This document shows, piece by piece, positions 2,262 to 5,651 of a stretch of DNA of 25,620 nucleotides (positions are counted from its first letter, which is position 1; every line of letters starts with the position of its first letter). Under the pieces are notes generated by a model. The model was given only the letters and a program-made list of their open reading frames with translations. It ran no database searches and was not told where the DNA came from. The translations under genes were made by a program, and so were the position numbers. The DNA lies in the NCBI GenBank assembly GCA_900299205.1, contig OMIW01000034.1:1-25620 (forward strand), in the 5' to 3' direction. This DNA comes from Pseudomonadota bacterium (GTDB taxonomy: Bacteria > Bdellovibrionota_C > UBA2361 > OMIW01).

Positions 2262-2557
2262 AAGACAGATAGAACCCGAGTACCCTGATCATGTCACTGG
2301 AAAATTAGTATAAATGGGGCTCTTTAGTTGGGAGATATAGAGGTCGTGGATCAAGAGGTTCGGGGAACCTTTACTTTTTTAGGGATTAAAAGGAACTTCA
2401 CGCCTCTGAGCAAAGGAAATTGGGCAGCTAATGTGAGTTTATACAAGCAGGAGGTGCCGTTGTGTGTCTTTTCGCGCAAGCTTGACAATCATTTTTTTTG
2501 GGGGGTAGTTTTTTTAAAACGCCGCCCTCATTCTCCCCTATTTCGGAGTACCCATAC
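2243..2557. other. Intergenic region between alr and the dehydrogenase
   Basis: These 315 bases contain no gene that I can support. Apart from the hairpins at its left end, the notable content is a promoter-like element with long T and G runs at 2482-2519 just ahead of the dehydrogenase, listed separately, and a GGAG ribosome-binding site at 2545-2548. Confidence 0.6.
2482..2511 (+). promoter_or_regulatory. Candidate promoter with homopolymer spacer upstream of the dehydrogenase
   Basis: A perfect TTGACA -35 hexamer lies at 2482-2487. Eighteen bases later TAGTTT (2506-2511) could act as a poor -10. The spacer consists largely of T8 (2492-2499) and G6 (2500-2505), and a further T7A4 run (2509-2519) follows. 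The predicted start of transcription would be about 40 bases before the ATG at 2558. The -35 match is strong; the -10 is weak, so the call is tentative. Confidence 0.4.
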
Positions 2558-3793
2558 ATGACCACCACAACTTTCACCAAAGCAGCACTCCTCGAAAAAC
2601 TGGCCGATCTCGAGAACCGGTTTTCAGATCTCTCTCCTGAGCTCGAATTGACCGTTCGGGACCCGGAACTTGGTGTTGAAGGATATGTGGTGGTGTGGAC
2701 GACCCTCACCGCTGTGGGGGGACCTTTGGGTCGATGTGGGAAAGGGGGAACGCGCATAACGCCGACGACGACTCTTGATGAAATCAAAATGCTCGCGCGT
2801 ATTATGGCGCTAAAAAATGCGGCGGCTGGATTGCCCCTTGGCGGCGCAAAGTCAGGGATGCGGGACGATTCTTCGTCGCCCGGGTTTGAGCAACGGTATC
2901 GGCGCTTCGTCGAGCTTGTCGCGCCTGTTCTTGTTGAGAGGGGCGGCATTTTTGGTGGATTTGGGTTTGATATCGGCGGGTTTCCGCAGCAGGCGCTCTG
3001 GGCGTGCGATCAGCTTAAATCAACGCGATGCTTCACCGGGAAGCCGGTTGAGATGGGGGGCACCGATTACGATCGCGAGGGAATCGCGGGCCTCGGGGTG
3101 AGTGAGAGCGCGGTAACGGCGCTCGAGTTTGAAGGGGTGCCGGTCGCGGGAACAACCTTCGCGGTGCAGGGGCTCGGCGCGATGGGAGCTGCGGTGGTCC
3201 GCTACTTTAGTGACGCAGGGGGCATTCTGCGCACGGTTTCGGATCCAAGAGTCGGCGGAAGCTATCTTCTCGAAAGAGGCGCCTCTCCCTCGCTCATTCA
3301 GGCGATTGCCTATGGTGACGGGGAGCGAACAAAGACGTTGCTTGAGAGCGAAGGGCGCATCGCGGCTCTTGATGCTGTTCTCTATGAGCCTGTTGATATC
3401 CTCTTCCCCAGTGCGGTTCAGGAAGTCATCACAGCGGCGAATGTCTCTCAGATCCAGGCAAAACGGATCGTCGAGGGGGCCAATAATCCGTGCACTGCAG
3501 AGGCGCGAACGGCGCTCTTTGAAAGGGGTGTGCTTGTACTGCCCGATTTTATCGTTAATGCCGGGGGAATTATCGCAGCGTTTGTCGAGATGAGTTCGCC
3601 GGTAACTGCGGAGGAGAACGCAAAAACGAGAGCAAAGGTAAAAGAGGCAAAAGAGCTCACTCGTACGTTGATGCGCGCCGGGACTCGGGAGATCCTCGAG
3701 ATTGCGCGCTCTGCGGGGGTTGAGCCGACTATTGCGGGTCGCTATCGTGCATTGCGATCAATTTTTAATCGGGCGGAGGTGTCGGCGGGTTGA
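2558..3793 (+). CDS. Glu/Leu/Phe/Val-family amino acid dehydrogenase (divergent)
   Basis: Members of this family oxidatively deaminate an amino acid with NAD(P). The 411-residue product has the catalytic-lysine motif GLPLGGAKSGM (K98), a probable catalytic Asp in GFGFDIGGF (D138), TGKPVEMGG, the Rossmann motif VQGLGAMGAAVV (residues 203-214), EGANNPCTAEA and LPDFIVNAGGIIAAFVE. These give the two-domain order of glutamate dehydrogenases. Several usually rigid motifs are altered: the family's PAPDVxT-like segment reads FGFDIGGF and ATGxGV reads IAGLGV, so substrate (glutamate, leucine or another) should not be assumed. ATG 2558 is chosen over the upstream in-frame ATG at 2498 because GGAG lies 9 bases before it and the upstream residues look like leader DNA. 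It stands alone, and the act operon converges on it from the right. Confidence 0.82.
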   Translation: MTTTTFTKAALLEKLADLENRFSDLSPELELTVRDPELGVEGYVVVWTTLTAVGGPLGRCGKGGTRITPTTTLDEIKMLARIMALKNAAAGLPLGGAKSGMRDDSSSPGFEQRYRRFVELVAPVLVERGGIFGGFGFDIGGFPQQALWACDQLKSTRCFTGKPVEMGGTDYDREGIAGLGVSESAVTALEFEGVPVAGTTFAVQGLGAMGAAVVRYFSDAGGILRTVSDPRVGGSYLLERGASPSLIQAIAYGDGERTKTLLESEGRIAALDAVLYEPVDILFPSAVQEVITAANVSQIQAKRIVEGANNPCTAEARTALFERGVLVLPDFIVNAGGIIAAFVEMSSPVTAEENAKTRAKVKEAKELTRTLMRAGTREILEIARSAGVEPTIAGRYRALRSIFNRAEVSAG

Positions 3794-3992
3794 GCTTAAA
3801 GCACCAGTGACGGTCAGAGGGTTATAGCTTAATTTTGTGGAACAATTATCGTAGGCGAAATTCGAGAACTATTGTCATCCACAACGCATCTCCCCGCTTT
3901 CTCTCTATGCCAAAAACAGCACACACCAAGACAACCTCTGAGATAAAGGCCGATCTAGCGACGATCGGCAGGACGGGGGGAGTCTCGCAGCA

Positions 3993-4020
3993 GGTGAACG
4001 CTCACCACTGAGCAAGCTCA
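3993..4020. repeat. Two adjacent palindromes upstream of the small ORF pair
   Basis: GGTGA-ACGC-TCACC (3993-4006) and TGAGC-AA-GCTCA (4009-4020) lie side by side, ending 5 bases before the GTG start of the 57-codon ORF. Two dyads immediately before a small two-gene cassette resemble an autoregulatory operator, but they could also be chance. The repeats are seen directly; the role is inferred. Confidence 0.35.
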
Positions 4021-4024
4021 CAAT

Positions 4025-4198
4025 GTGATCAAGGTGAGAGAGGCTCGTCGGGCCTTTCGACGATTTCGCGAATTATGTTTCTGGTCCTACGACCCCAATC
4101 TGACTATCGCTGGTGATTATGTGCCATGGATGGTTGAGATGCTGAGAAAACACGGTAATCCTCTAGCAGGAAAGGTCGCTGATACATTATGCCGCTGA
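4025..4198 (+). CDS. Small conserved-looking protein, possible antitoxin-like partner (remnant cassette)
   Basis: A GTG start at 4025 gives 57 residues, including ARRAFRRFRELCFWSYDP and a C-terminus ending DTLCR. From memory, short proteins with an AFRRFR..CFWS motif and an LCR end occur upstream of AbiEii-like nucleotidyltransferase genes; I could not verify this by search. The fit is strengthened by context: its TGA overlaps the ATG of the next frame, which looks like the N-terminus of such a nucleotidyltransferase. The frame is closed by TGA at 3995-3997, so the N-terminus is short; GTG 4034 is an alternative start. No clear ribosome-binding site is seen for GTG 4025. It may be intact but orphaned, or decaying with its partner. 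Confidence 0.42.
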   Translation: MIKVREARRAFRRFRELCFWSYDPNLTIAGDYVPWMVEMLRKHGNPLAGKVADTLCR

Positions 4199-4305
4199 CA
4201 AGTTTTCACCGAGAAGTCGCCGTCCTCCATGTGGCACATCGAACCAACGGTCCTTCACTGATTGGAATCGGAGCAAATCTCTTAAACACAGCGTCGAACC
4301 GGTAG
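4189..4305 (+). pseudogene. Truncated AbiEii-like nucleotidyltransferase (toxin) remnant
   Basis: The frame begins MPLTSFHREVAVL, overlaps the previous small ORF by 10 bases, and stops after 38 codons. The start resembles the N-terminus I recall for AbiEii/AbiGii-type nucleotidyltransferases (MPLTxFQxEV..LLA..R.p.S...GG), and SLIGIGANLL falls where their SHLAGG-type strand would be. The nucleotidyltransferase core (a GS/GG motif followed by a D-x-D pair) is absent, and no continuation is visible in the other frames before the actF end at 4374. If the assignment is right, the gene is a 5' fragment of one that is normally several hundred residues long. Family assignment rests on a short match and on the two-gene overlap. 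Confidence 0.42.
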
Positions 4306-4373
4306 AGCCTGCCTGTCAAGCACACCTGCACTGCTCAGGTTACGTGAAGGATCACAGGTTAGACGAACTGTAT

Positions 4374-5651
4374 CTACCAATCGGCGCTCCCCCGCGCCAA
4401 AGGTGAAGACACAATCACGGGAGGTACCGCCGCCAGGAAGGACTGAACCGAAAGGACGTAAAGTCCTAAAAATCCAACAAATACCCCTATCTCCGTAAAA
4501 CCAAAAGGTATGGCGTGGGGGGAGTATTGAGGCATCACGAGAAGATAGCGCTCCATCGCAAGCCCTATCAGGATCAAAGTCGCTACAGAGCCAATACACC
4601 GAGGGGTTTTCTTGACGTCACGGCTCAGAAGAATGATGAACGGCATGATAAAGCAGGCGGCAAGAGTGACCCAGGCAAATCCCTTCCAGGGGAATTCACG
4701 GAGCCGAATAATGATGTACTGGGTCTCTTCGGGTAGATTCCCGTACCACTGGGGAAGAAATTGGCTAAAAAAGAAATAGCCCCATACCATACAAAAACCA
4801 AAAGTCAGCTTACCGAGGTCCCAGAGCTCATTTGTGGTCACCCACTTCGCGAAGGTCTTATCGCGATGGACGTGGTAAAGAGTCAAAAGAATGAGCATAG
4901 CCCACCCCGCATAAATATTACCGATGAATACGAACCCTCCGAAGAGGTTCGATAGCCATCGATAATCCATCGCCATAACCATCTCGAAGGCAAACATGGA
5001 ATAGACGAGTGCGTAAACAAGGGCTAAAGCGGGCGCCCGTCGGGACAATATATTTTGATTCTCGGGGACCTCAAGCGGCAAACCTCGCCATCGCTCAGTT
5101 ACCGAGCTATGAAGAAAACTCGACCAACGGTCCGGATCCACGCTGTGGTCCTTCACCATGCCGATATCTCCCCGCCACGAAAGGCGCACAAATCGCCACA
5201 TGAATAAGAAGAGGAGGAAAAGCAGAATTCCGATCCGCGCATAGACGAAGGTCGGCTGCATCCACCATTCTGTCCCGGGGCGTGGTGAGCGTGCCCATGG
5301 AAAGAGGTACTCACGACCTGCGTACGATACCAAAAAGAGGGTGAGAGCCACCGGCAGAAAAGCAACATTAGCCTCAGTCAATCGACGAATCGAGGCAGAC
5401 CAGGTCGCCCGGGTGATCTGGAAGATGGCGGAAATCATCACCCCACCGGCCGCTATCCCCATGAAATAGAGAAGGGCCCAATAGTAACAGAACCAGGCAT
5501 GTGCTGCGTCGCCCGAGAGCACTCCGTTCAGGAACGTAGCGGTGCCGATGGCAACCCCAAGCCAGGCGTATTTTCTGACCGAGGCAGCGGGCTGCAACGG
5601 GGCGGCGTTAATCGCCTCTTCGATATTGATTGATGGTGCAGCACCGTGCAT
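4374..5651 (-). CDS. actF: Alternative complex III subunit ActF (NrfD-like membrane protein)
   Basis: ActF is the second polytopic, NrfD/PsrC-related membrane subunit of ACIII and pairs with ActC in the membrane arm. The 425-residue product has about ten hydrophobic helices, starting at YAWLGVAIGTATFLNG near residue 28 and ending at VGFLGLYVLSVQSFLAAVPP, with conserved-looking FAFEMVMAMDYRWLSNLFGG in the middle. The ATG at 5649-5651 has an AAGGAGAG ribosome-binding site 6 bases upstream. It is the last gene of the act operon, 36 bases after actE. The gene ends near a convergent junction; no terminator was found. The assignment rests on topology plus position in a complete actABCDEF order. Confidence 0.9.
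   Translation of the reverse strand: MHGAAPSINIEEAINAAPLQPAASVRKYAWLGVAIGTATFLNGVLSGDAAHAWFCYYWALLYFMGIAAGGVMISAIFQITRATWSASIRRLTEANVAFLPVALTLFLVSYAGREYLFPWARSPRPGTEWWMQPTFVYARIGILLFLLFLFMWRFVRLSWRGDIGMVKDHSVDPDRWSSFLHSSVTERWRGLPLEVPENQNILSRRAPALALVYALVYSMFAFEMVMAMDYRWLSNLFGGFVFIGNIYAGWAMLILLTLYHVHRDKTFAKWVTTNELWDLGKLTFGFCMVWGYFFFSQFLPQWYGNLPEETQYIIIRLREFPWKGFAWVTLAACFIMPFIILLSRDVKKTPRCIGSVATLILIGLAMERYLLVMPQYSPHAIPFGFTEIGVFVGFLGLYVLSVQSFLAAVPPVIVSSPLARGSADW

Follow-up and report, generated by a model that had tools for sequence, protein, structure and literature searches.

Remnants of a two-gene module in the window

The window, i.e., the whole stretch of 25,620 nucleotides analyzed here, is part of a draft assembly of 206 contigs and carries two short frames in the gap that separates a dehydrogenase gene (stop at 3793) from the convergent actF gene (stop at 4374). 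The first is a GTG frame of 57 codons (4025-4198), whose last codons contain the start of an ATG frame of 38 codons (4189-4305), and the two share 10 bases, ATGCCGCTGA. The features of the gap are given in Table 1.

Table 1. Features of the gap between the dehydrogenase and actF genes and of its flanks
Feature	Position	Strand	Remarks
Dehydrogenase gene	2498-3793	convergent with actF	stop at 3793
Best, poor match in the gap to the 19-bp operator	3848-3866	+	-1.2 bits vs 20-33 bits for real sites
N-terminal fragment of small antitoxin-like gene	3931-3987	+	IGRxGG domain (TTSEIKADLATIGRTGG..); frame differs from the remainder; profile positions 4-22, 6.7 bits
Small-gene lesions	3988-3997	+	net +1 base between profile blocks; TGA at 3995-3997, a sense codon in relatives
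Remaining small-gene frame	3998-4198	+	C-terminal helical, presumed toxin-binding domain; ends LCR-stop; includes the 57-codon frame from 4025
Start of AbiEii-type nucleotidyltransferase gene, 38 codons and premature TAG	4189-4305	+	profile positions 1-38; stops just short of catalytic Asp-x-Asp
Spacer up to actF stop	4306-4373		no nucleotidyltransferase sequence detectable in six-frame profile search
actF gene	4374-5651	convergent with dehydrogenase	stop at 4374; intact

A profile of 45 relatives of the small protein, searched against the window in six frames, matched 3998-4195 over profile positions 26-91 (E=1.3e-24), and all 57 residues were matched at 49-56% identity by single homologs in five other genomes. 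These relatives are approximately 88 residues long, with starts upstream of the equivalent of 4025. Judging from these alignments, the 57-codon frame represents the C-terminal two thirds of a genuine protein family of about 88 residues. The frame proposed in the first-pass annotation was therefore real and has homologs, but the gene does not start at 4025, and its N-terminus lies in another frame at 3931-3987. This N-terminal block is weak by itself, yet collinear with the C-terminal block in the profile. Because the two blocks are collinear but profile positions 22 and 26 are separated by 10 bases of window DNA rather than the 9 expected, with a TGA between them, the small gene has a net shift of one base and a stop at 3995-3997. 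When an intact relative of 88 residues was used as a tblastn query, the window was matched over 3977-4195 across one TGA. Additionally, the window gene retains 15 of 20 conserved columns, as compared with 85-100% in each of 32 intact relatives; W80 and D63 are among the residues replaced, and the loss exceeds that in any of the 32.

Neither window frame matched Pfam or NCBIfam, and the 57 residues gave only weak, unrelated matches in plasmids. The decayed frame as a single-protein query against genome contigs found no match; the intact family as query succeeded. The match at 3848-3866 might be read as a decayed operator, but it is no better than chance (0.19 such matches expected per gap); this reading was rejected, and the window operator was taken as lost.

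The 38-codon frame aligned with the nucleotidyltransferase profile from position 1 at 9.4-9.7 bits (E=0.027), a score reached by none of 3000 codon shuffles and none of 3000 base shuffles. The alignment ends at profile position 38 and no later match was found in six frames, in agreement with the earlier remark that the downstream core motifs are missing. Since no further piece of the toxin gene precedes actF, about 225 codons have been deleted, including the catalytic Asp pair (D43 and D45 in the alignment); the gene lacks its 3' ~85% (~680 bases), and the active site with it. In the assembled host genome, no other copy of either gene, and no intact one, was found. A search of 29 actF loci of relatives detected no dehydrogenase within 1.5 kb of actF, so the dehydrogenase/actF junction may be peculiar to this lineage.

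Intact modules in other bacteria

When 84,980 species genomes were scanned with the small protein as seed, 50 loci were obtained, whose records name Gemmatimonadota, Myxococcota, Bdellovibrionales, Acidobacteria, Phycisphaerales, Bacteroidota, Verrucomicrobia, and others. The first-pass annotation had proposed a small protein followed by an overlapping AbiEii-type nucleotidyltransferase, and this arrangement was recovered: among the 46 loci having the C-terminal domain, 37 have a full-length nucleotidyltransferase (at least 225 codons) directly downstream, with its ATG or GTG positioned exactly nine bases ahead of the last base of the small-gene stop codon, i.e., with the same 10-base overlap as in the window. 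A further downstream frame counted by the script, at L093, begins with CGG and was rejected as an artefact because tblastn detected no nucleotidyltransferase there. The small protein is indeed poorly described, as the annotation had supposed: no family was found for it in Pfam or NCBIfam and no credible match among PDB sequences, where very short helical proteins may escape detection, and its structural model had no Foldseek match, a search that can likewise miss short helical proteins. In the open-licence literature, we found no description of its pairing with a nucleotidyltransferase, and no experiment on toxicity, neutralization, or DNA binding was found for the family.

The partner enzyme of L011 passes the Pfam AbiEii cut-off (PF08843, 27.2 vs 22.5 bits). 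That of L086, 38% identical to it in the alignment, falls below the Pfam AbiEii and DUF6036 cut-offs and matches AbiEii of PADLOC at 2.5e-9. In 26 relatives, G27 and D43 of the GG...DxD active site are invariant, and G28 and D45 are nearly so. The AlphaFold model of the L086 enzyme (pLDDT 91.7) has JHP933, MenT4, and MenT3 as its closest solved structures (Z 13.7-13.9 over 199-229 residues), and also matches MenT1 (8an4) with a Z of 10.6; the predicted fold is a nucleotidyltransferase fold, as judged by the matches to MenT3, MenT4, and JHP933. The nucleotidyltransferase profile gave no credible match against PDB sequences, and no relatives of the enzyme were found in the phages searched. A related nucleotidyltransferase (36% identity), annotated as AbiEii/AbiGii, is encoded on plasmid pRPC2 of Rhizobium sp. 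BG4 (L123, 2160-3316), a conjugative plasmid, near transposases; the small protein upstream of it differs, having 113 residues and lacking the CFW motif.

Operator palindrome and putative exchangeable DNA-binding domains

Of 43 small genes of the IGRxGG type, 42 have a 19-bp palindrome, ATCATAAGCNGCTTATGAT, at their promoter, with one site per locus (for example, ATCATAAGCCGCTTATGAT). It mostly lies 5-15 bases ahead of the first matched codon of the small gene, and its right arm can therefore act as a -10 element. An exact pattern search of 191 genomes returned one match, which lies ahead of the small gene of the module in G012. The only full-length locus lacking the palindrome, L088, is also the one in which the N-terminal domain has been replaced.

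In addition, the small proteins of L008-L012 form a second class, in which an N-terminus of ribbon-helix-helix type is attached to the C-terminal CFW domain shared with the IGRxGG type; the partner enzyme, too, is of the kind found with that type. The N-terminus of L008 scores above the Pfam BrnA cut-off (PF14384, 43 vs 26.1 bits), and the same search found no PF14384 domain in the small protein of the window type (P0001). The palindrome is absent from this second class. By eye, the upstream regions of L008-L012 are rich in AT-rich, TATATAC-like repeats just ahead of the start codon, which are possibly a second type of operator. As the exchange of the N-terminal head coincides with the absence of the palindrome in L088 and L008-L012, these comparisons suggest that the antitoxin consists of exchangeable DNA-binding heads, each fitting its own operator, on one toxin-binding tail. 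The operator and the two antitoxin classes, like the N-terminal lesions of the window gene, go beyond the first-pass annotation.

The palindrome, often as ATCGTAAGCCGCTTACGATGCAT, is also found in L108 and in the Verrucomicrobia contigs L109-L111, in the latter 6-10 times within 3.7-5.1 kb, where it adjoins a protein of about 63 residues having only the IGRxGG N-terminal domain. These copies look like a dispersed palindromic repeat family.

Comparison with known toxin-antitoxin systems

AbiE (AbiEi/AbiEii) is a type IV toxin-antitoxin system (PMC3985639), the operon of which is reported to be autoregulated via inverted repeats (PMC7319586). The modules described here resemble AbiE in having two genes, the antitoxin gene first and the AbiEii/DUF1814 nucleotidyltransferase gene second, with an inverted repeat at the promoter. 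However, AbiEi (COG5340) is a two-domain protein, whereas the first protein here has about 88 residues, matches no Pfam or NCBIfam family, is unrelated to AbiEi by the searches made, and has its own operator. In MenAT1 of Mycobacterium tuberculosis, MenA1, a protein of 68 residues reported to be without a DNA-binding domain, is paired with MenT1 (PMC10435456, PMC11375011). MenA antitoxins comprise three independent protein families (PMC11375011), and the MenT enzymes attach nucleotides to tRNA (PMC10435456, PMC11541572). Both systems have a small antitoxin gene followed by the gene of a DUF1814 nucleotidyltransferase, and the enzyme here matches MenT1 in fold, but the small proteins have no detectable sequence relation (profile against PDB sequences), and the modules here carry a conserved operator. 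Within the AbiEii-type toxin-antitoxin modules, the family represents a previously undescribed AbiE/MenAT variant.

Two further likenesses concern single components. The toxin of the BrnTA system, BrnT, is a ribonuclease. The antitoxin BrnA resembles the L008 class in its ribbon-helix-helix N-terminus, but here this domain is joined to the CFW C-terminal domain and accompanied by a nucleotidyltransferase. JHP933 of Helicobacter pylori (4o8s) is within the best Foldseek match group of the nucleotidyltransferase model, although it is only 17% identical to the L086-type enzyme.

In an intact module, a promoter overlapped by the palindrome would yield an mRNA that has a very short leader and spans both genes. 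Of these, the first would encode the antitoxin of about 88 residues, with an N-terminal IGRxGG..SRR domain predicted to bind the palindrome and a C-terminal helical domain, bearing the CFWSYDP motif, that may bind and block the toxin. The second gene, presumably coupled to the first in translation through the 10-base overlap, would encode the AbiEii/DUF1814 nucleotidyltransferase, which, to judge from its fold, probably extends tRNA ends with nucleotides and arrests growth in the manner of MenT1 and MenT3. Weighing these features together, we lean slightly towards an undescribed type of toxin-antitoxin system, in which a conserved AbiEii-toxin-binding tail is carried on swappable heads and operators, and in which IGRxGG..SRR would be a new small DNA-binding domain reading ATCATAAGCNGCTTATGAT that has also spread, tail-less, beside the dispersed Verrucomicrobia palindromes.

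Decay of the module

Homology, gene order, lesions, operator conservation, and predicted fold make it highly probable that the region is a pseudogene pair, the dead copy of a toxin-antitoxin module located on the chromosome. The cassette is decayed, as had been proposed: the toxin gene has lost its 3' part, and the antitoxin gene has acquired a frameshift, the TGA, and replacements of conserved residues and has lost any recognizable operator. With these lesions in both genes, neither product should be able to work. Loss of the toxin would have left the antitoxin free to decay, an order of events that we infer.

A coincidental likeness, whether of frames open by chance between genes or of a different gene, might be read into the failure of both frames to match Pfam or NCBIfam and into the short second frame, which is weak alone. 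It is refuted by the profile E-value of the first frame, the 6000 shuffles, none of which reached the score of the second, and the exact overlap shared with intact pairs, which leave it practically no probability. Assembly errors in a pair that is intact in the organism are hardly more credible. The sequence is a draft contig and one lesion is a single base, which could be such an error, but ~680 missing toxin bases, a separate stop, and several losses of conserved residues cannot all be base errors, and the flanking actF is intact; two lesions together with the loss of the 3' part of the partner make such errors unlikely as a full account.

It is also improbable, if less so, that only the toxin is dead and that the small gene still functions, being read from the GTG at 4025 into the C-terminal toxin-binding domain alone and acting alone as an antidote to related modules that arrive from outside. 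In its favor, no stop interrupts the C-terminal frame, most of the conserved columns are kept, and at other loci whose toxin has been lost or truncated the small gene persists by itself with its frame intact (L062, L066, L067, L075, L082, L093, L101, and L105). However, these solitary relatives retain the whole 88-residue frame and the operator (the L105 frame continues into toxin sequence), whereas the window gene has lost its N-terminus, operator, and start, and conserved residues, W80 and D63 among them, have been replaced beyond the loss in any intact relative. The window copy is a fossil of ordinary decay.

A lost or damaged toxin beside an open small frame was found at nine loci, i.e., the eight above and L098, where the toxin is damaged by a frameshift, and additionally in G029 (L003); the case of L082 lies at a contig end. 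Because the small protein served as the query of the scan, the converse, a live toxin with a dead small gene, would be missed. In the class of the window organism, all nucleotidyltransferases found lie at loci already known for the small gene, save one at a contig end; every IGRxGG-type copy found there has a damaged or missing toxin, and the ribbon-helix-helix pairs look intact. Toxin genes without the N-terminal, active-site half were observed in L105 (2501-3162), L101 (2777-3226), and L003 (1322-1486, minus strand), and in L105 the C-terminal half of the toxin appears fused to a truncated small-protein gene.

Although itself only a fossil, the window copy has led to a widespread family of antitoxins, so far unnamed, that accompany nucleotidyltransferase toxins. 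Because the small gene and its operator persist at several other loci after loss of the toxin, these loci make it possible to study the sequence of events by which such modules die. The family is also a compact system for testing how antitoxins exchange their DNA-binding heads and retain the part that binds the toxin, and its IGRxGG domain may be a new DNA-binding domain, one whose operator is sharply defined.
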